In this document: positions 6,779 to 35,514 of the stretch, in pieces | Numbering within the stretch: position 1 is the stretch's first letter | How the letters are laid out: every line of letters starts with the position of its first letter | From: Candidatus Omnitrophota bacterium | GTDB taxonomy: Bacteria; Omnitrophota; Omnitrophia; Omnitrophales; JACROU01 | Reading direction: 5' to 3' | DNA length: 64,000 nt | Assembly (NCBI GenBank): GCA_029261035.1 | Contig: JAJDCD010000025.1 | Location: 124,001 to 188,000, forward strand | Made by a program: the position numbers and the translations under genes | Notes under the pieces: generated by a model | The model's input: the letters and a program-made list of their open reading frames with translations, nothing else | Database searches by the model: none | What the model was told of the DNA's origin: nothing

Positions 6779-6865
6779 TAGAACGCCCCATATTTAATAG
6801 TTTTATAAACAATTTAACTATATCACATTTAAACAATGCCTTCAAAGTGGTAAAGGGAACCTCTT

Positions 6866-7038
6866 GTCATTCCCGAAATCTTTTATCGGGAATCCATGAC
6901 AAATTGAATATCTCTCTTCTTTAATAAAACCCTGGATCCCCGATCAAGTCGGGGATGACAATGGTAATGGGGACAGGCACTCCGTTCAGGATGACAAACA
7001 AACCCTGGATCCCCGACAAAAACATTCGGGGATGACAA
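6866..7038. repeat. Cluster of three palindromic repeats (ATCCCCGA/TCGGGGAT and ATTCCCGA/TCGGGAAT types)
   Basis: Three short hairpins lie between the giant gene and the ETF-QO gene. The first pairs ATTCCCGA (6869-6876) with TCGGGAAT (6886-6893). The second pairs ATCCCCGA (6936-6943) with TCGGGGAT (6949-6956). The third pairs ATCCCCGA (7009-7016) with TCGGGGAT (7026-7033). A GGGGACAGGC half repeat at 6969 and the words CCTGGATCCCC and GGATGACA recur. The open frame on the minus strand across this stretch is produced by the repeats and is not a gene. The last hairpin lies just after the stop of the ETF-QO gene. Confidence 0.85.
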
Positions 7039-8716: not shown

Positions 8717-8902
8717 AAAGTCATTGCGAACGAAGTGAAGCAATCTCATGAGATCTCCATGCTCCTTATAGGAGCTCGCGATGACCATTGTCTTAGGCAA
8801 AGTGTCATTCCCGAAATCTTTAGTCGGGAATCCATAACACTTATGTATTACCGCACCTTTTGCCAAAAACCTGGATCCCCGACACAAACATTCGGGGATG
8901 AC
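8717..8902. repeat. Cluster of three palindromic repeats upstream of ETF-QO
   Basis: The first unit (about 8721-8786) has ends GTCATTGCGA and TCGCGATGAC, with inner complementary words AGCAATCTC/GAGATCTCC and GCTCCT/AGGAGC. The second pairs ATTCCCGA (8807-8814) with TCGGGAAT (8824-8831). The third pairs ATCCCCGA (8875-8882) with TCGGGGAT (8892-8899). The last two belong to the families seen at 6866-7038, so copies bracket the ETF-QO gene. After them (8920-8950) comes a run of CTTCAC/TCACG words with no clear function. Confidence 0.8.
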
Positions 8903-8951
8903 AATAGGTCGGCCCTCCTACTCGCTTCACTCTTCACGACTCACGCTTCAC

Positions 8952-8975: not shown

Positions 8976-10077
8976 ACAATAAGTATAACAGTCGATCTAT
9001 ATCTTTCTCATTATTGTAAAAGTGTGGGGCTACGCGTAAACCACCGCCTCTTGGAATGGAAAATATTTTTTCTTTAAATAAAGTTATAGCAGCTTTTTCT
9101 GGGTCAGACACTTTAAGAATCACAATACCTGAACGATACTCTGGTTCTATGGGTGACAAAGCAGGGATGTTCTTCTTTTGAGCTTGCTCAATGAGATAGT
9201 CGGTGAGAAAAAGAATGCGTTCTTGAATCTCTTTTTTTCCAATAGAATCAAAATAAGAACAGGCGGCACCTAAACTAAAATAGCTTGGAAATGAAGGGCC
9301 TCCATATTCAAATCGCGAACAATTAGGATTCAAAACCGTATTCTTATTATCATATCGATCCGGATCATCCACGCTACGCCATCCAGCAAAAGATGGTTTT
9401 TTGCTTTCCAAAAGTCCTTTTCGAATATACAAAACACCCCCTCCATAACCAGCCATCATCCACTTATAACTATTCCCCGTCATGCAATCAACGCCCATTG
9501 CTTTAACATCGATTGGGAAAGCCCCTAAAGCTTGAGAGCAGTTAACCACAAAATGTGCTTCCCGTTCTTTGGCTATTTCTGAAAGAGCTTTTAGGTCTTG
9601 TCTAAAACCTGTAGCGTATTGAACATAACTGGAAAGAATCGTTTTAATCGAAGAGCTCCACTTCTCTTTAAAAAGTTTAGGAAGCGTTTTATTGTCTTCA
9701 GAAGATAAAAAATGCACCTTTTCCGTTTGATGAAGCCAAGGCACTGTTGAAGCGGGAAATTCCATATCGCTCATCATAACTTCCCCATCACTTTTTAGAA
9801 GATCGACAATTAAATTCATCCCCTCAGAAGTACTATGCACAAAAGCAACTTCCTCAGGGTCTGCATTGATGAATTGAGCTACATTCCTTCGAGCTTCTTC
9901 TTTGCGCTCGAGCCACTCATCCCAAACAAAATCTCCTTGATTCAAAGACTCCTGCCAATACCCAGAAGCCGCCTCAAAAGCAGGACGAGACACTAACCCT
10001 CCAGCAGCATGATCCAAATAAACATAATCTTTCACACTAGGAAAATCCTCTTGTCTTAATTTACCCCAATCAATCAT
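8974..10077 (-). CDS. Class V aminotransferase (PLP enzyme)
   Basis: PLP-dependent enzyme of 367 residues, fold type I. The N-terminus YVYLDHAAGGLVSRPA and the pyridoxal-lysine region GNSYKWMMAGYGGG are typical of the class V family (cysteine desulfurase, isopenicillin-N epimerase, kynureninase relatives). VHSTSEGMN is the phosphate-binding region. The substrate cannot be told from sequence; no sulfur-transfer partner lies next to it. The frame could start five codons earlier at a TTG, but the ATG at 10077 is preceded by AGGGGAGGT and is chosen. Third codon positions in the first 50-60 codons are almost all G or T, unlike the rest of the gene, because the gene starts beside a composite hairpin element. 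Confidence 0.85.
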   Translation of the reverse strand: MIDWGKLRQEDFPSVKDYVYLDHAAGGLVSRPAFEAASGYWQESLNQGDFVWDEWLERKEEARRNVAQFINADPEEVAFVHSTSEGMNLIVDLLKSDGEVMMSDMEFPASTVPWLHQTEKVHFLSSEDNKTLPKLFKEKWSSSIKTILSSYVQYATGFRQDLKALSEIAKEREAHFVVNCSQALGAFPIDVKAMGVDCMTGNSYKWMMAGYGGGVLYIRKGLLESKKPSFAGWRSVDDPDRYDNKNTVLNPNCSRFEYGGPSFPSYFSLGAACSYFDSIGKKEIQERILFLTDYLIEQAQKKNIPALSPIEPEYRSGIVILKVSDPEKAAITLFKEKIFSIPRGGGLRVAPHFYNNEKDIDRLLYLL

Positions 10078-10097
10078 AATACCTCCCCTCAAAAAGC

Positions 10098-10281
10098 ATC
10101 GTCACACATGTGACGATACAATATACCTAGGCAAAATAAGTGCTCGATGCACTTCTTTTGCCAACCTCTCAACACTCACACTAATTTTATACCTCACAGA
10201 AAAAGATTGTTTTCCCGCCGCGAGTTCACAAAAATCGTATTGTATTTTTGTGCTGTCTGAGCGCCGGGAATACAATCTTTT
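10098..10281 (+). other. Composite hairpin element, copy 1
   Basis: Three hairpins in the order found in the other two copies. First hairpin: ATCGTCAC (10098-10105) with GTGACGAT (10110-10117). Second hairpin, 10130-10162: GGCAAAA with TTTTGCC, a T.C mismatch, AAGT with ACTT, and the invariant loop GCTCGATGC. A G-poor linker follows. Third hairpin, 10201-10281: AAAAGATTGT with ACAATCTTTT, one T.T mismatch, TTCCCG with CGGGAA, a C.C mismatch, CGC with GCG, the internal loop GAGTT opposite CTGTCTGA, and an inner stem CACAAAAAT with ATTTTTGTG. It lies between spoU-like (ending 20 bases away) and the aminotransferase. The plus strand here is given as the reference orientation. Function unknown; it could act as a terminator for the spoU-like gene. 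Confidence 0.8.
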
Positions 10282-10300
10282 CCGACCCACCTACCTAAAA

Positions 10301-10828
10301 TTACCCTCTCCCACCCCACTGTCTCAACAACTCATAAACAATAATCGAAGTAGCCGTAGAAACATTCAAAGAATTCTTCTCACCCCGCATAGGAATCTCA
10401 ATCGCCCGATCCGCATACTTCATCAATCTCTCATCAACCCCATTCACCTCATTCCCAACAACTAAACAAAGAGGATAAGGGTATTCCACATCCCAATACA
10501 CTTGAGATTCTTCAATGTGCTCTAACACCACTATGTGATATCCCGATCGAGTTAACGATTCTAACGCACGGGAGGCATCTACATGATACTCCCAAGGAAC
10601 CGTCTTCTCCGCACCCAAAGCCGTTTTACCTACTTTAGGGTTATCCGGAGTGGAAGTAATTCCCGCTAAAATAATTTTTTCCAATCCAGCACCATCCGCA
10701 AGACGAAACAAACTTCCCACGTTGTAAGAACTTCTAATATTATCTAGAAGTAAACAGACAGGCAAACACTCTAATTCCGAATTATTTTTCCTTAATTCTA
10801 ATATTTCTTGATGACTCAACTTTTTCAT
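10301..10828 (-). CDS. SpoU (TrmH)-family RNA 2'-O-methyltransferase
   Basis: SPOUT-fold methyltransferase of 175 residues that would methylate a ribose in tRNA or rRNA using S-adenosylmethionine. All three family motifs are present: motif 1 LLDNIRSSYNVGSLFRLADG, motif 2 LVVGNEVNGVDE, and motif 3 IPMRGEKNSLNVSTA, which form the trefoil knot. The length fits the short TrmH/TrmL-type proteins without the N-terminal L30e-like domain, so the exact target base is open. Toward the 3' end wobble bases become almost only G or T (36 of the last 38 codons), which matches the halo of the adjacent composite element. Confidence 0.9.
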   Translation of the reverse strand: MKKLSHQEILELRKNNSELECLPVCLLLDNIRSSYNVGSLFRLADGAGLEKIILAGITSTPDNPKVGKTALGAEKTVPWEYHVDASRALESLTRSGYHIVVLEHIEESQVYWDVEYPYPLCLVVGNEVNGVDERLMKYADRAIEIPMRGEKNSLNVSTATSIIVYELLRQWGGRG

Positions 10829-11285: not shown

Positions 11286-11758
11286 AAATCTTCATCATCC
11301 TCAAAACGTCCAGACAGTGTCGCCCCCCAAGTTCTACGGCCTCCATCAACAAGGTTGGGGTCCTCTTTGGTTGTTCCCCAATTAGAATTATCAACAGTTT
11401 CTGTTGTAGAGTAATCTTCCTTCTTACGTCTTCCTGGTTTTTTGAAATCTCTTTCTGTCATTTTTTCTTCTAAAAGTTTCTCATCCACCTGCAAAGGTTG
11501 ATCTACATTTCTCTTACGTCCTCTAGTTTTCTTTTCTGTAACTTCCTTTACCTTCACTTTATTAACAGATACAGTTTTCTTAACCCCTTTCGAAGAAGTT
11601 TTCTTCTTAGACAGAGAGGTCTTCTTTTCAACCTTTTTCTTAGCAATTTTTTTCTTGGAAGCCTTGGGTTTAACGACAGATCTCTTCTTAGAAGCCTTTT
11701 TCTTAACAGCTTTTTTCTTTCTTACAGGGGAAGACTTTGCTTTTTTTTTCTTAGCCAT
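11282..11758 (-). CDS. Histone H1-like lysine-rich protein with acidic C-terminal tail
   Basis: 158 residues in two parts. Residues 1-75 are a Lys/Ala/Ser/Val repeat (KKKA, SKKK) like the DNA-binding tail of histone H1 and chlamydial Hc proteins. Residues 90-158 are mixed-charge and end in an acidic FEDDEDF tail, with the motifs PGRRKKEDY and NWGTTKEDPN. Such proteins bind DNA or RNA non-specifically and compact the nucleoid. A GTG three codons upstream is possible, but the ATG at 11758 follows AGAGGTGATC and is chosen. It lies directly after a second histone-like gene, separated by a hairpin terminator. Function inferred from composition only. Confidence 0.7.
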   Translation of the reverse strand: MAKKKKAKSSPVRKKKAVKKKASKKRSVVKPKASKKKIAKKKVEKKTSLSKKKTSSKGVKKTVSVNKVKVKEVTEKKTRGRKRNVDQPLQVDEKLLEEKMTERDFKKPGRRKKEDYSTTETVDNSNWGTTKEDPNLVDGGRRTWGATLSGRFEDDEDF

Positions 11759-11803
11759 AAAGATCACCTCTTATGCGGATATCTCAATATAAGTATAAAT
11801 AGA

Positions 11804-11839
11804 AAAGGATATGGAGCCTTTAAAAACCCCATATCCTTT
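11804..11839. terminator. Intrinsic terminator between the two histone-like genes
   Basis: AAAGGATATGG (11804-11814) pairs perfectly with CCATATCCTTT (11829-11839) around a 14-base loop. On the minus strand the hairpin is followed by a T-rich stretch, so it would end the transcript of the upstream 73-residue gene. The A run on the plus-strand side also makes it usable in the other direction. Confidence 0.7.
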
Positions 11840-11887
11840 ATAAAAAACCCAACAAGCGATTGATTTATTAATAAGCAAATCCGTTTA

Positions 11888-12109
11888 TTATTTTCTTTTC
11901 TTTTTTGTAGCTTTTTTCTTTGCTTTTTTCTTAGCTGGCTTTTTCTTAGCAGCTTTTTTCTTTGCTTTCTTTTTTGCTTTTTTCTTAGCAGCCTTTTTCT
12001 TAGCAGCCTTTTTCTTTGCTTTTTTCTTAGCTGGTTTTCTTGCTACTTTTCTTTTCTTAGTAGCTTTTTTCTTACCAGCTTTTTTCTTTGCTTTTTTCTT
12101 TGCAGCCAT
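11888..12109 (-). CDS. Small histone-like protein (Hc1/H1-tail type)
   Basis: 73 residues made almost only of Lys and Ala with a few Arg, Pro, Thr and Gly, in repeats such as AKKK and AAKKK. This is the composition of the H1-like C-terminal tail found in several bacterial nucleoid proteins. The sequence AAGGAG precedes the ATG at 12109 by 6-7 bases. The gene faces an AT-rich spacer of more than 400 bases that would be a good target for such a protein. The low-complexity sequence prevents a family call beyond histone-like. Confidence 0.75.
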   Translation of the reverse strand: MAAKKKAKKKAGKKKATKKRKVARKPAKKKAKKKAAKKKAAKKKAKKKAKKKAAKKKPAKKKAKKKATKKKRK

Positions 12110-12580
12110 TGTTAACTCCTTCCCTCATCCTGAGGTTAAGTTAATGAACCTACTATTAATGAATCATCGCTTTATTAGGTTTAGTTTTCAAAAAACATTT
12201 ACTTTCGACTTTACTCTCAAAAATGCGAGATATTCTACTTCGAAAGTTTGTACTCTTATTAACGGAATAATATATCTATTCCTTTATAAAATATTTTACC
12301 ACTTCATTCTAGTGAATTACAAGTATTAATCGCATTTTTTTAAAAAAAGATTATTTATTTTTTTGCGAGAGAAATTATTTTTGTTTAAATTAAAAATATT
12401 TTTTTGAATTTTAGTTTTAAAATTTGTTTTTTCTCTTTTTTTTTCATAGCATTTTAAACTTTTGGTTTTAATTTTTATCAGCGTATTAAAAAATAAAACA
12501 TTAGATTAACTCTCTCTACCCTATAACAATGTGAGATGAACCTTTTGCTGCTATTATCAATAGTGAAAGGCAGGCAAAAT
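12110..12580. other. AT-rich intergenic region with inverted repeats
   Basis: About 470 bases without a convincing gene. From about 12300 to 12500 the sequence is nearly all A and T with long T runs. An 8-bp inverted repeat (ACTTTCGA at 12201-12208 with TCGAAAGT at 12240-12247) and a 6-bp one (AACCTA/TAGGTT at about 12147-12180) lie nearer the histone-like gene. It must hold the divergent promoters of the histone-like gene and the lipoprotein gene. A TATAAC box at about 12522 is a possible -10 for the latter. No DnaA-box cluster is seen. Confidence 0.6.
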
Positions 12581-15596: not shown

Positions 15597-16100
15597 ATGA
15601 AACATTTAATACTCTCTTTTTTAATTCTATGTTCGCTCGTCTTAGGAATCCCTTCTCTTCATTCCGAGGTTCCTCTTACCGTCAAATCCAAGAGCCCTGC
15701 TCCCCCATCCGAGTTTGTTGTTGAAGCCATTATTGACGTGAATATTTTAAAAAGCGCTGCAGGCCCTTCCATTCGAATGCTGGGAGTTGAAGCCACTCGC
15801 AATATTGAAGCTAAAAGAAAGGGGATGGAATATTTAGAAACAAATATAAAGGGGAAAACATTCACATTAGAATATGACAAAAAAACGAAAGACCCTATGG
15901 GAAGGTTTTTAGCTTACGTCTATTTCGAAGATGGAAACATGCTAAACGAAGAAGTTCTCTGGAGAGGTTACGGATACGCTTCCAAAAAGTATCCCTGCAA
16001 ATACATCTACAAATTCCGCCGCTACGAAAACGACGCCAAAAGAAAAAACCACGGCCTCTGGAAAAAACTAACCAAACCAGGTGAGACAAAAGACAAATAA
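15597..16100 (+). CDS. Secreted staphylococcal nuclease-like (SNase/thermonuclease fold) protein, active site altered
   Basis: 167 residues with a signal peptide (about 1-23). The SNase fold is recognisable from IRMLGVEAT, GKTFTLEYD, DPMGRFLAYVYF and the C-terminal ENDAKRKNHGLW. In the family the pattern DGDT supplies calcium-binding Asp residues; here it reads DVNI. The Asp of VDxPE is Glu and the catalytic Glu seems to be lost, while both Arg residues (in IRM and MGRF) remain. Catalysis is therefore doubtful, and binding of nucleic acid is an alternative. Third positions of the last 41 codons are A or C in 35 cases, against about half in the first 41, because the 3' end runs into a composite hairpin element. 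Confidence 0.75.
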   Translation: MKHLILSFLILCSLVLGIPSLHSEVPLTVKSKSPAPPSEFVVEAIIDVNILKSAAGPSIRMLGVEATRNIEAKRKGMEYLETNIKGKTFTLEYDKKTKDPMGRFLAYVYFEDGNMLNEEVLWRGYGYASKKYPCKYIYKFRRYENDAKRKNHGLWKKLTKPGETKDK

Positions 16101-16262
16101 CACGTCTTTACCCATAATAAAATAAGTGCTCGATGCACTTCTTTTATTATCTCCCTTCTCCCCACCCAAGTCTACACAAACAAGAAAAAGGGAATGCCTC
16201 CACTGCGAGTTGCGGAGGCCTTTGGCCGAGCATGTCTGAGCAGTGGAGGCATTCCCTTTTTC
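16089..16262 (+). other. Composite hairpin element, copy 2
   Basis: First hairpin weak: AAAGAC (16089-16094) with GTCTTT (16104-16109), overlapping the nuclease stop codon. Second hairpin, 16114-16150: ATAATAAAA with TTTTATTAT, a T.C mismatch, AAGT with ACTT, and the invariant loop GCTCGATGC. Then a G-poor linker. Third hairpin, 16184-16262: a perfect 23-bp stem (16184-16206 with 16240-16262) of sequence unrelated to copies 1 and 3, the internal loop GAGTT opposite ATGTCTGA, and an inner stem closed by GGCC/GGCC. It lies between convergent genes and could end transcription from both sides. Outer stems differ from the other copies but pair fully. Confidence 0.85.
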
Positions 16263-16299
16263 GCCACAACTTATAATCTTTTCTACTCACCTTAACAAA

Positions 16300-17484
16300 C
16301 TACTTCTTAACCACCTCAACCGTACTCCTAGAAGTAAACTGATACTCAATCCCTCTCCAAGTCATCTTTCGAGCAAAAGCAGGAATAATAAAACTTCCAA
16401 TCGCAAGCACTTGAGTCGCCAAAGCCAAAACAGGATACCAAATTGTAATCTCACCTATCGTAGGAACTTCCTCTTTAAGACCATCATCAATCGCTTTCTT
16501 CAATAAAAGTGTGTTCACAACAGACATATAAACAGGAGACAAAAATAACCAATGCCTCCAATCTAAAGTACCTTGCTGAGCAGCCATAACAAATACGACA
16601 GGACTCACCAACATAAACACAATTCGAGCAATAAACATCAAAGAAACCCCAGTCCACTTCTCTGGGAAATAAACGCGAGAAAGCAAAGACTGCCGATTGG
16701 CCCATTTAATAAAATCAATAAAACGAGTCCCCTCGTAGATAGGTACGATGTTCTGAGGAACAAAGTAATTCTCAAGCCCTGTTGGTTTTAATGCCATACT
16801 CAATGTTAAATCATCCGTAAGCGCTGTCTTCCATATCTCTCTTACATTAAACTCTTCAAAGTGTTTCTTACAGACAGCCATAGCACCCCCATAACACCCT
16901 CTAAAACGCTTTACTGTCACAAAGGCACCTAACCCTGACATCCAGGTAGACTTCACCAAAGACCAGAAAGTCTTCTTTAAAGGAACGTAAACAGGAATAC
17001 CCGTCGTTATTCCAACATGATCATATTGAAGAGGAGCAATTAGGCTTTTAATCCATAAAGGTTGAGGAGATGTATCCGAATCCATAAAAACTAAAACCTC
17101 AGACTTATCTCGAACAACTTCCGTCGCACGAACCAAATTATTAAGTTTCCCAGTATTTGTTACAGGATGTCCCGCAACCACAATTTGAGTCGGTATATCC
17201 AAATGAGCACTTGTTAATTCTTGAAGACGCTCATACGCAGGATCTTCTACTGTTGCTACAGCAAAAACAATTTCATAATCAGGATAATCCTGATTCAATA
17301 TCGATTTGATGCTCTTATCAAAATTAGGATCTATCCCCTTGCAAGGAATAATAACGGAAAGAGGAGGGAAATAATCAGGGTGTTTAATTTTAAGTCTTTT
17401 TTCCGTCACCCAAAAAAAGTTGAAAATAAAAAAGAATTGAAACAAAGTTAAAGTAACACAAACCACGGTTAGTATTTCAAACAT
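16300..17484 (-). CDS. GT2/GT21-type glycosyltransferase (ceramide glucosyltransferase/HpnI-like), membrane-bound
   Basis: 394 residues. An N-terminal membrane helix is followed by a GT-A domain starting VIIPCKGIDPNF. The metal-binding motif is MDSDT, the catalytic acidic pair is in TDDLTLS, and IKWANRQSLLSR replaces the usual Q(Q/R)xRW. Two to three membrane segments follow. This layout matches ceramide glucosyltransferase and the hopanoid enzyme HpnI, so a lipid acceptor is likely, but the sugar and lipid are not visible. The gene is eight bases downstream of a lipoprotein gene and probably co-transcribed with it. Its last 21 codons end in G or T except one. Confidence 0.8.
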   Translation of the reverse strand: MFEILTVVCVTLTLFQFFFIFNFFWVTEKRLKIKHPDYFPPLSVIIPCKGIDPNFDKSIKSILNQDYPDYEIVFAVATVEDPAYERLQELTSAHLDIPTQIVVAGHPVTNTGKLNNLVRATEVVRDKSEVLVFMDSDTSPQPLWIKSLIAPLQYDHVGITTGIPVYVPLKKTFWSLVKSTWMSGLGAFVTVKRFRGCYGGAMAVCKKHFEEFNVREIWKTALTDDLTLSMALKPTGLENYFVPQNIVPIYEGTRFIDFIKWANRQSLLSRVYFPEKWTGVSLMFIARIVFMLVSPVVFVMAAQQGTLDWRHWLFLSPVYMSVVNTLLLKKAIDDGLKEEVPTIGEITIWYPVLALATQVLAIGSFIIPAFARKMTWRGIEYQFTSRSTVEVVKK

Positions 17485-32897: not shown

Positions 32898-34079
32898 TTA
32901 TTCTTCTTTGATATCTATTTCAACATTAATTCTTCTAGGCTCCACGTTTTCCAAAACAACTTTTTTGTTCGAAAAAGTAACGTCTGAATTTGAAATAAAC
33001 ACACTTTGTTTTTCTTTTCTTACGTCTAATGTTCTTAGAATTAGGTGGATCGTATTCGCATTAGCAAAATAAAACGACCTTCTAGGTCCGGAAAAGCTAA
33101 CCTCTACGACTTCAGGGTCTGTTTTTACCTCAGTAACACTTTTAGGTAATTTAGCGTATTCTACAGGAATTTCGTAGGTTTTATAAACTAATTTAGACCC
33201 ATCTACTAAAACAAACCATAAAGCTAAGGACATAACTAATGCAATGACCTTTTCTCTATAGTTTTTCTTAAAGAAATGCTGCCATGGCTTCTTTTCTTCT
33301 TCTGGAGCAATCACCTTGTAGAATTTCTCTAGAAGACGGCTTAAAGCATTCGCATCTTCTATTTCCTTAATCTCCGCTTTATTAGCATAGGATATACTCC
33401 CTCTCTCTTCCGAAACGATCAAACACAAAGCATCTGAGAGCTCTGACAAACCTAAAGCAGCAGCATGTCGTGTTCCTGACTGGCCCAATTTCTTCATATT
33501 CTTAGACAAAGGCAAATGAGACCCAATTTGAGAAATTCGATTCTTTTCAACAATCACAGCACCATCATGTCCTGCAGAATGCGGATCGAAAATACTCTTT
33601 AAAATAGGCTCACTCAACTTCCCATCAAGCTCAACACCACCTTCTAAATGTCTCAAGATTAAATCTTTGCCTCGGATAACAATTAAAGCCCCAATACTCT
33701 CACGAGACAAATCCATAATTGTCCTCACAAGAACTTCTGTTTCAGGTCTTGTAATTCGCTCCCGCCCTCTTATCTTGAGCCTTCGCTTCAATCCAAAAAG
33801 TGCAATCTGTTCAAAGAAATGCCTTAACTCTTCCTGAAAAATAACCACAAGTGCTATTAAAAAAACAGCAAAAAAACCTTCAAAAATAGTAGATGTGAGA
33901 TACAGATTAAACTGTCTGGACAATAAATAAATGAGAGCAACAATAAATATCCCCGTCAACACAAACGCTGCTTTAGTCTTCTTAAACCACACAAGAATAC
34001 TATAAACAACCAGCGTCATAAAAAGAATATCAATCAACCCCGACACACCCATTTCCTTCAAAAAACTCAACACACCCAT
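32898..34079 (-). CDS. cdaA: Diadenylate cyclase CdaA fused to a YbbR domain
   Basis: 393 residues. Three N-terminal membrane helices (about 10-90) are followed by a DAC domain with the catalytic DGA (172-174, in HDGAVIV) and RHAA (204-207), which makes c-di-AMP from two ATP. A fourth membrane helix (about 278-293) then leads to a periplasmic YbbR-like domain (about 295-393). In Firmicutes CdaA and its regulator CdaR (YbbR repeats) are separate neighbouring genes; here one YbbR unit is in the same chain. GAGGGTG precedes the ATG. Codons 1-30 end in G or T in 29 cases, an effect of the composite element upstream. Confidence 0.9.
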   Translation of the reverse strand: MGVLSFLKEMGVSGLIDILFMTLVVYSILVWFKKTKAAFVLTGIFIVALIYLLSRQFNLYLTSTIFEGFFAVFLIALVVIFQEELRHFFEQIALFGLKRRLKIRGRERITRPETEVLVRTIMDLSRESIGALIVIRGKDLILRHLEGGVELDGKLSEPILKSIFDPHSAGHDGAVIVEKNRISQIGSHLPLSKNMKKLGQSGTRHAAALGLSELSDALCLIVSEERGSISYANKAEIKEIEDANALSRLLEKFYKVIAPEEEKKPWQHFFKKNYREKVIALVMSLALWFVLVDGSKLVYKTYEIPVEYAKLPKSVTEVKTDPEVVEVSFSGPRRSFYFANANTIHLILRTLDVRKEKQSVFISNSDVTFSNKKVVLENVEPRRINVEIDIKEE

Positions 34080-34230
34080 AACACACCCTCAATCTATAGC
34101 CATTAGCCATTAACTTCAACCGCCAGAAGCGGTCCGCTATCTTTACAGCGGATTCTAAATCCTAAACAAACACATCACCATAAACAACGCCTTCATCCCC
34201 AACCTAATCAAACCGCTAACAACAAAACGC
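34080..34230. other. cdaA upstream region with two small hairpins
   Basis: Part of a 370-base gap between the DHH gene and cdaA. CCGC/GCGG (34120-34132) and TCCGCT/AGCGGA (34133-34152) form two adjacent hairpins, and GCCATTAGCCATTAA (34098-34112) is a short repeat. The plus strand is rich in A and C. The cdaA promoter should be here, but no convincing -10/-35 pair stands out. Confidence 0.4.
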
Positions 34231-34425
34231 GTTTCGTTATGAATACCATAACGAAACACCTTAAACCCCAGAAACAATATGGGCTCGATGCCATCTTGTT
34301 TCAACCCCTAACACACTATCAAGCGTTCAGAACTTAAAGGAAAATAAAATGTTCCCGCCGCGAGTTCACAAAAATCGTTCCTCAATTTTTGTGCTGTCTG
34401 AGCGCCGGGAACATTTTATTTTCCT
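34231..34425 (+). other. Composite hairpin element, copy 3
   Basis: First hairpin: GTTTCGTTATG (34231-34241) with CATAACGAAAC (34247-34257). Second, 34271-34302: GAAACAA with TTGTTTC, a T.C mismatch in the same place as copies 1 and 2, ATG with CAT and the loop GCTCGATGC (with one extra G). Then a G-poor linker. Third, 34338-34425: a perfect 20-bp outer stem (34338-34357 with 34406-34425), a C.C mismatch, CGC with GCG, the internal loop GAGTT opposite CTGTCTGA and the inner stem CACAAAAAT with ATTTTTGTG, as in copy 1. It ends 24 bases after the stop of the DHH gene on the minus strand, again downstream of a minus-strand gene. Confidence 0.85.
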
Positions 34426-34449: not shown

Positions 34450-35514
34450 CTAACCCCTAAACGGATAAACCCACTTTACCTTCAAAGGAATCCTAACCCT
34501 CCTCATAAACCTCTGCACCAACTCTTTCTCCACCTTAATCCAAAATGCCTCATCCCTATTCTTCCCAATCTTAAAACTCCCCCCTCCAATACTCCCATGC
34601 CCCCCCGCATCTCCTCGATCATCAAAAATATCTCTCAACACTTCACCTGCTTGAGCATTAGGAGTTGAAGTTCTCAACGAAACATGAAGTTTCCCATTAT
34701 ATCTTCCCGTAGTTAAAGACCAACGGATTCCTTTGTACGTAAGCAGAAAATCAGCAATTTGAGAAACAAGATCTGGATTCTTAACGTCACCCAAATGAGA
34801 AAAAATAAGGCTTCGACATTTTACAGCTGTCTGAATTCCTTTTCCCAAACTAACAAAAAAACTGCGTGAAAGAGCCGATGGATTTTGAATACGTGCCAAA
34901 GCCCTCAAATCGCAATAAGGAAGTATGTCTAAATAAACACGAATTACTTTCGGATGTTTTGCTCGATATAAATTTAATGTATCCGAAATAATCCCATATG
35001 CAAGAGCCGTTGCAATCCGCACTGGAATTTCTTTACCTAAGATTAATAACGCTTGCGCCAATATAACCGATGTCGCTCCACAGTCAGGATCCACAATGCT
35101 CAAATCAGCATTTGGCTTCTCTTCCGAAGGGTGTTGATCTAGAACTATTCTAGAACGTCTGCTTTTGGGAAATGGATTGTTTTTAAAATTAGGCTGGGTA
35201 TCTACGAGGGCCACATTAGAATATTTCTTAAAATCATTTTTCCTTAACTTGTGTACTGGAATTTTAAGCGTATGGACTAATTCTTTATTTTCAACTCTCC
35301 CTATAATGCCTCCATAAACCATTTTAGACGGAACCCCATAATTACTCTCTACAATATGTTGCAAAGCAAAAGCACTCGCAATGGCATCTGGATCTGGAAA
35401 ATCGTGCATCAAAATTAAAAGCGGATTGATATCCTCTTTTTTTTCTTTTAAAAAAGACAATAGCTTCTCTGCATTTAGCTGAATATGATCTGGTTTTATT
35501 TTCATCTTCTTCAT
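34450..35514 (-). CDS. DHH/DHHA1-family phosphoesterase (NrnA/GdpP-like)
   Basis: 354 residues. The DHH domain has motif I PDPDAIASA, motif II in ALVDTQP and motif III as LDQHPS, where the usual DHH reads DQH. The DHHA1 part ends with GGHGSIGGGSFKIG. Such enzymes use two Mn2+ ions to cleave short oligoribonucleotides, pAp, or cyclic dinucleotides. Because the next gene downstream makes c-di-AMP, hydrolysis of c-di-AMP or pApA is a reasonable guess, but no membrane, PAS or GGDEF domains of GdpP are present. The second motif change does not remove the metal-binding His. Its last 51 codons end in G or T in 47 cases. Confidence 0.8.
   Translation of the reverse strand: MKKMKIKPDHIQLNAEKLLSFLKEKKEDINPLLILMHDFPDPDAIASAFALQHIVESNYGVPSKMVYGGIIGRVENKELVHTLKIPVHKLRKNDFKKYSNVALVDTQPNFKNNPFPKSRRSRIVLDQHPSEEKPNADLSIVDPDCGATSVILAQALLILGKEIPVRIATALAYGIISDTLNLYRAKHPKVIRVYLDILPYCDLRALARIQNPSALSRSFFVSLGKGIQTAVKCRSLIFSHLGDVKNPDLVSQIADFLLTYKGIRWSLTTGRYNGKLHVSLRTSTPNAQAGEVLRDIFDDRGDAGGHGSIGGGSFKIGKNRDEAFWIKVEKELVQRFMRRVRIPLKVKWVYPFRG

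Follow-up and report, generated by a model that had tools for sequence, protein, structure and literature searches.

The locus examined here raises the question of why two genes read from opposite strands should choose their synonymous codons in such a way that one and the same DNA strand becomes rich in A and C. In the window (the whole stretch of 64,000 nucleotides that was analysed), a staphylococcal-nuclease-like (SNase) gene and a glycosyltransferase gene converge on the second of three copies of a hairpin element. Codons ending in A or C rise in the SNase gene from 20/41 at its start to 35/41 at its end, and in the glycosyltransferase gene 20 of the final 21 codons, and 37/41 over the final 41, end in G or T. 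An earlier note on this DNA had given the SNase counts and the figure for the last 21 codons, which were found to be exact, and its observation that the plus strand gains A+C on both flanks of copy 2, with the flanking genes on opposite strands, was confirmed. It had placed the effect at 15960-16560; a halo is present there but reaches further, to roughly 15.7-16.65 kb according to the mean profile over copies. Raw A+C across 15960-16560 is 0.62 against a window mean of 0.553, which is not extreme; the signal resides at third codon positions. The features around copy 2 are listed below.

15597..16100, plus strand: SNase (Staphylococcal-nuclease-like) gene, PF00565; the left halo of copy 2 covers its 3' half
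16300..17484, minus strand: glycosyltransferase family 2 gene, PF13641; the right halo of copy 2 covers its 3' end
15700..16650, plus strand: A/C halo of copy 2, approximate, from the metaprofile of 53 copies and 200-bp composition
16116..16148, plus strand: H2 of copy 2, with a variable stem and the loop CTCGATG
16185..16261, plus strand: H3 of copy 2, consisting of a variable outer stem, GCGAGTT, inner stem, TGTCTGAGC and outer stem

H2 and H3 are present at copy 2 and a clear H1 is absent; the predicted fold of H3 has an MFE of -56.7 and a shuffle z of -10. Genes for an IMS-family polymerase and for LexA also lie near this copy.

The composite element and its copies

The other two copies in the window, with their halos, are the following.

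10096..10119, plus strand: H1 of copy 1 (GCATCGTCACACATGTGACGATAC)
10130..10162, plus strand: H2 of copy 1
10199..10283, plus strand: H3 of copy 1
9770..10092, plus strand: left halo of copy 1, in a minus-strand aminotransferase gene; 79/107 third positions are A/C, first 41 codons 33/41
10301..10560, plus strand: right halo of copy 1, in a minus-strand SpoU methylase gene; 69/86, last 41 codons 39/41
34186..34200, plus strand: conserved box of copy 3, AACGCC-TTCATCCCC (consensus AACGCCTTTATCCCT)
34231..34257, plus strand: H1 of copy 3 (GTTTCGTTAT...ATAACGAAAC)
34271..34302, plus strand: H2 of copy 3
34339..34424, plus strand: H3 of copy 3
33910..34079, plus strand: left halo of copy 3, in the minus-strand gene 32898-34079; 48/56, first 41 codons 38/41
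34450..34650, plus strand: right halo of copy 3, in a minus-strand DHH-family gene; 57/66, last 41 codons 38/41

All of the gene ends beside these three copies (6/6) are biased, with 33-39 of 41 codons, and the other gene ends in the window mostly give about 16-30 of 41, with a maximum of 34.

A reading of all copies describes a composite of ~230 nt, in which boxes, H1, H2, a C/A-rich linker and H3 follow one another on the element strand. The boxes at the 5' end of that strand are AAATCCTAAACCAAC and AACGCCTTTATCCCT, H1 is GTTTCGTTATT...AATAACGAAAC or GTATCGTCACACATGTGACGATAC, the loop of H2 is CTCGATG, and H3, a strong hairpin, holds the core GCGAGTT...TGTCTGAGC; the linkers are G-poor. The stem sequences of H2 and H3 vary among copies, yet pairing is kept (covariation), as at pair 9 of H3, which is TA in 17 copies, GC in 13, CG in 10 and AT in 9. 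Stem mismatches of the A.C and G.T kinds occur about equally (18:18 in H3; 15 A.C and 18 G.T in H2), which is unlike RNA stems and is compatible with template switching (PMC7202029), in which, at the DNA level, a stalled hairpin has one of its arms rewritten to match the other.

By exact search, 39 + 13 copies were found in the 2.7-Mb genome (G000), and by tolerant search 53 were accepted in 1.55 Mb, the part of the 2.7 Mb that the halo analysis covered; the copies number about 54. On contig C16, strong A/C peaks without an exact copy revealed copies that had been missed, at C16:52683, 348920 and 336020 and, in broken form, at 389.7 kb. The element gives no match above the gathering score with the Rfam 15 covariance models, and no matches in plasmids or viral contigs; no relevant paper with both core motifs was found, and the element is undescribed in the literature searched.

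The window holds further repeats. Dense CTTTTTTCTTAGCAGC-type repeats at 11620-12118 apparently belong to a minus-strand Lys/Ala-rich histone-H1-like coding region, and a widespread kind of inverted repeat, GTCATTCCCG / GGATCCCCGAC, is present at 6865-6901, 7000-7038, 8803-8839 and 8866-8904; at the copies of these inverted-repeat types elsewhere in the genome the halo is absent.

The halo across the genome and in relatives

The halo is a genuine, strong and unexpected phenomenon. The z value of each copy was computed from residuals after correction for codon class, gene strand and region; by this measure 52/53 copies are A/C-enriched at synonymous sites on the element strand, with a mean z of 4.06 and 36/53 above 3, a value exceeded by 1.7% of background windows. 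In comparison with random intergenic gaps, the copies have a joint z of 22.8, and 65% of them lie beyond the 99th percentile of the control gaps. On contig C18 (388 kb), each of the five top A/C peaks at third positions falls on an element copy, and the stretches of G000 that were analysed contain no N. The window is A/C-rich overall, yet chance or region-wide skew is excluded by corrected residuals that still reach z 4.1 per copy. The earlier claim stands both against the element-free gene ends, about 1,500 of which show no halo and average -0.016 to +0.004, a null that also rules out generic gene-end codon usage, and at the other copies of the element, where the skew is positive in 52/53. 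No comparable shift is seen at hairpin repeats of other types (GTCATTCCCG, GTGACNGTCAC, GGATCCCCGAC) or at terminator-like sites (mean z -0.96 to +0.32).

Averaged over copies, raw A+C is ~0.63 adjoining the core and ~0.545 past 500 bp. On the right the mean profile starts at +0.24 and is close to zero within about 400 bp; on the left it starts at +0.18 beside the composite and has all but vanished about 600 bp from the core. The halo is symmetric around the composite, keeps to one strand throughout both flanks and has a range of about 300-400 bp per side; as regards its centre, the composite of ~230 nt, with two or three hairpins, is borne out and the core hairpin is not. Third positions shift most (0.61 to 0.78), first and second positions little.

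Single copies depart from this average. At least one intact copy, that at C18:336649, has no halo, and the halo is likewise slight or absent at the intact copies at C16:319484, 346692 and 73789; such copies could be young insertions, usable for dating. The strongest halo on C16 belongs to the copy without a left arm at 389.7 kb (L086), where third-position A/C is 0.044 on the plus strand, that is 0.96 on the copy's own strand.

The bias tracks the element strand and not the coding strand, left-hand genes giving 0.763 when they lie on the element strand and 0.748 on the opposite one. All copies (53/53) lie on the C-rich strand, as judged from the skew over +-15 kb, and this strand is identified as the lagging-sense one by dnaA, which is found at a sign switch of the skew (C16:247 kb). 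Since every copy has the same placement, element orientation and the direction of replication coincide completely in G000: the bias does follow the element strand, as the earlier note had proposed in tying it to element orientation, but replication direction is inseparable from it. A second sign change of the GC skew, at ~95 kb on C16 and 150 kb from dnaA, may be a terminus, an inversion or a misjoined contig.

Relatives provide the element-free counterpart. In G001, of the same family and a different genus, the convergent glycosyltransferase and SNase genes abut without a gap and without the element. The last 41 codons of the glycosyltransferase gene give 37/41 here versus 20/41 (G001) and 19/41 in orthologues, and those of the SNase gene 35/41 versus 16/41 in the element-free G001 orthologue. 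The same holds for G/T-ending codons in the last 50 of MnmE (0.98 here versus 0.36 in G001 and 0.30 in G002) and at the end of NuoD (0.90 versus 0.56 and 0.52), and for the DHH end (0.92 versus 0.48-0.62 in five relatives); in these MnmE, NuoD and DHH relatives the core is absent within 900 bp downstream. Amino-acid identity at the gene ends is undiminished in MnmE and NuoD and somewhat lower in the glycosyltransferase and DHH proteins. Taken together, the element-free orthologues and the protein identities indicate that the bias accompanies the element and is mainly synonymous. No window of G001 passes |z| 5 in about 270 kb.

The core hairpin is distributed over Omnitrophota, Atopobiaceae, Eisenbacteria and others, and the two-sided halo was seen only in G000, being absent at the copies of G006, other Omnitrophota and Eisenbacteria. 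G000 itself is probably a member of the Omnitrophota, judging by its relatives. In G006, of the same order, the core hairpin is placed and oriented as it is here, and no halo surrounds it; core and polarity are thus insufficient, and a fuller composite or a host factor are candidates for the extra requirement. Extreme peaks in G006 turned out to be masked N runs. At the Atopobiaceae loci (L087-L166) the shifts are opposite-signed across the core, a rise of coding-strand A/C at gene 3' ends, and an effect that flips sign in this way is a gene-end effect and not a halo. For SbcD, a hairpin-cutting protein, TIGR00619 gave no match in G000 and seven relatives of the order (13/14 controls match); its absence may help hairpins to persist, but does not account for a halo in one lineage alone.

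Single-strand exposure as a proposed cause, and competing explanations

The kind of change was read from four-fold sites of right-hand genes on the opposite strand. Far from the element, A/C/G/T stand at 0.449/0.190/0.097/0.264, and near it at 0.491/0.379/0.029/0.101, so that C/(C+T) rises from 0.42 to 0.79 and A/(A+G) from 0.82 to 0.94, and the purine fraction goes from 0.55 to 0.52. Since the purine fraction is conserved, the shift consists almost purely of transitions (T>C, G>A). If A and C were simply favoured alike, the purine fraction would at equilibrium be about 0.65, as calculated from the same counts, and symmetric selection for the two bases was rejected on this ground. The spectrum favours mutation over selection, although selection could mimic it if transversions were too slow to equilibrate. 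By the same four-fold counts, the halo multiplies the replication log-odds asymmetry about 3.4-fold locally.

Of the three causes that the earlier note had offered, exposure of the minus strand as single-stranded DNA (C to T, A to G) is the one that fits this spectrum best. We give about an even chance to the reading, drawn from sequence, that the halo is a mutational scar, formed because the lagging-strand template near the element becomes single-stranded again and again. It builds on what was observed at the copies, namely the halo, its strand, symmetry and range, its transition signature, its presence or absence with the element, and its lagging polarity. The G-rich strand, complement of the element, would serve as the lagging-strand template. 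At each copy it would be exposed with unusual frequency or for unusually long spells, across the element itself and some 300 bases of each flank. C to T and A to G changes in the exposed strand would be read on the element strand as the complementary transitions, G to A and T to C, and synonymous sites would drift to A/C while selection preserved the proteins. We infer that the exposure occurs during replication, with the hairpins hindering completion of Okazaki fragments, and that its source is damage to exposed bases rather than polymerase error; any reason for the equality of the two sides would likewise be conjecture. The direction of the halo, which is that of the genome's replication skew, amplified, counts for exposure, as do the unbiased orthologues without the element, the likeness to mitochondrial DNA, the covarying stems with their balanced mismatches and the missing SbcD. 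Simple polymerase blocking would predict a one-sided excess, against which stands the near symmetry of the halo, and the undiminished identity of the MnmE and NuoD ends, which gives no sign of a raised mutation rate, the halo-free hairpin of G006 and the copy at C18:336649 also speak against exposure. Double-strand break resection was rejected, as it would put opposite strands on the two sides and the sign of the halo is constant.

Selection on the element as a folded single strand, RNA or DNA, near which G and T would be purged so that the hairpins stay unpaired, is in our judgement rather unlikely. It would agree with the G-poor linkers, with the weaker predicted folding of the element strand in the halo (-7.2 versus -10.8 kcal/mol per 90 nt) and with tandem G-A pairs that, judging from GCGAG/TGAGC, could close the internal loop of H3 on the element strand only. 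However, permutation of synonymous codons in the halo leaves the predicted folding unchanged, the native order being no less structured than the permuted one (z -0.04 +/- 0.21), so there is no sign of structure-avoiding selection beyond base composition, and the selection for a strand unable to pair with itself that the earlier note had considered finds no further support. Such selection would also have to act on ~100-200 synonymous sites at each of 54 loci, and it sits poorly with the four-fold purine fraction that is kept, with the equal A.C and G.T stem mismatches, unlike the folding of single-strand RNA, and with G006, which retains the hairpin and has no halo.

Transcription offers another route to the same changes and is judged improbable: RNA of leading-strand genes would form R-loops at the element and leave the displaced strand exposed. 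The right-hand gene points toward the element at 46/51 copies, with a median distance of 44 bp between gene and core, and it is the G-rich strand that matches the transcript, an arrangement shared with R-loop-prone GC skew. Yet the four copies between divergent genes keep the halo when pooled (R z 4.1, L z 5.5), strongly at C4:264508 and C16:348920, two of the four being weak; neither the 5' nor the 3' ends of leading-strand genes without the element, ~650 of each, have a halo; and the element's orientation is tied more tightly to replication (53/53) than to the direction of the genes (46/51).

Repeated error-prone synthesis over the element, by gap filling, mismatch-repair or retro-copying tracts with a transition-biased polymerase, would yield the same local, two-sided and transition-rich pattern, and is thought highly improbable as a separate cause. 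The earlier note's error-prone polymerase is compatible with the data but indistinguishable on them from exposure, for it requires preferential resynthesis of one strand and hence again a single-strand gap, and the IMS-family and LexA genes beside copy 2, which might seem to favour it, are of little help because the IMS-family gene is a lone coincidence, unlinked to the other copies. Insertion of the element into strands already A/C-rich is scarcely credible, for even though the element strand is the C-rich strand everywhere, relatives are unbiased at the same genes, including the gap-free convergent SNase-glycosyltransferase pair, and peaks of such strength are rare without the element.

Relation to known systems

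Base composition near the element resembles that of vertebrate mitochondrial third positions. The changes are complementary one-strand G>A and T>C transitions, dominated by third positions and graded with distance, as in the gradient that strand-displacement replication leaves opposite the exposed strand of vertebrate mtDNA, where the asymmetry is attributed to deamination and exposure of a long-lived single strand and is graded by the time spent single-stranded (PMC8565317, PMC3269015). Unlike that gradient, the halo is local (about 300 bp per side at ~54 dispersed elements), two-sided and centred on a repeat in a bacterial chromosome. Bacterial replication GC skew has the same polarity, with the lagging-sense strand C-rich genome-wide, but the halo is tied to the element and locally amplified. 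Tentatively, and as a possibility well short of even, the ~54 dispersed, lagging-polar sites may each be a patch of ~800 nt that is regularly single-stranded, a built-in lagging-strand gap or start site with a mitochondria-like mutational field.

At the ends of ~100 genes, what determines codon choice is a nearby DNA element rather than the gene, its expression or its coding strand, and the element itself, with covarying stems and strict lagging polarity, is new relative to the literature searched. If the exposure reading is true, composition would be a fossil record of repeatedly single-stranded chromosome sites, which could be located in any genome from sequence alone, and the copies would form a dispersed natural test bed for the cause of replication-strand asymmetry, with the empty sites of relatives as controls.

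Two transcription-related classes were considered and rejected. Like intrinsic (Rho-independent) terminators, most copies lie close to the 3' end of a gene aimed at them, at a distance of about 44 bp, but most copies have by reading no T tract, 4 stand between divergent genes and orientation follows replication. The G-rich displaced strand near transcript ends recalls eukaryotic R-loop GC skew at gene ends, but at the copies between divergent genes the halo persists with no flanking gene pointing into the element.

As dispersed intergenic hairpins with a single-strand biology coupled to the lagging template, the copies are also like REPs with TnpA-REP (RAYT) and IS200/IS605 ends, and TnpA-Y1 family genes are present in the genome at four Y1_Tnp loci. 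Unlike REPs, the element is a larger three-hairpin composite with variable stems, placed away from Y1 genes, and we know of no halo at REPs. REPs are defined by a 5' GT[AG]G tetranucleotide at the hairpin foot (PMC6006769); a GTAG scan found it at 0/52 H3 feet, with GGAG near 9, and membership was rejected. A REPtron arrangement was rejected as well, 0/4 Y1_Tnp loci having the GCGAGTT core, although one of the four is bordered by GTGACNGTCAC palindromes. A nested GTGACNGTCAC- or GGGACNGTCCC-type palindrome sits in the inner loop of at least 12 H3 copies (L193-L205), and this palindrome type also flanks a Y1 transposase gene (C18:332816, L189), which suggests one repeat family inside another.
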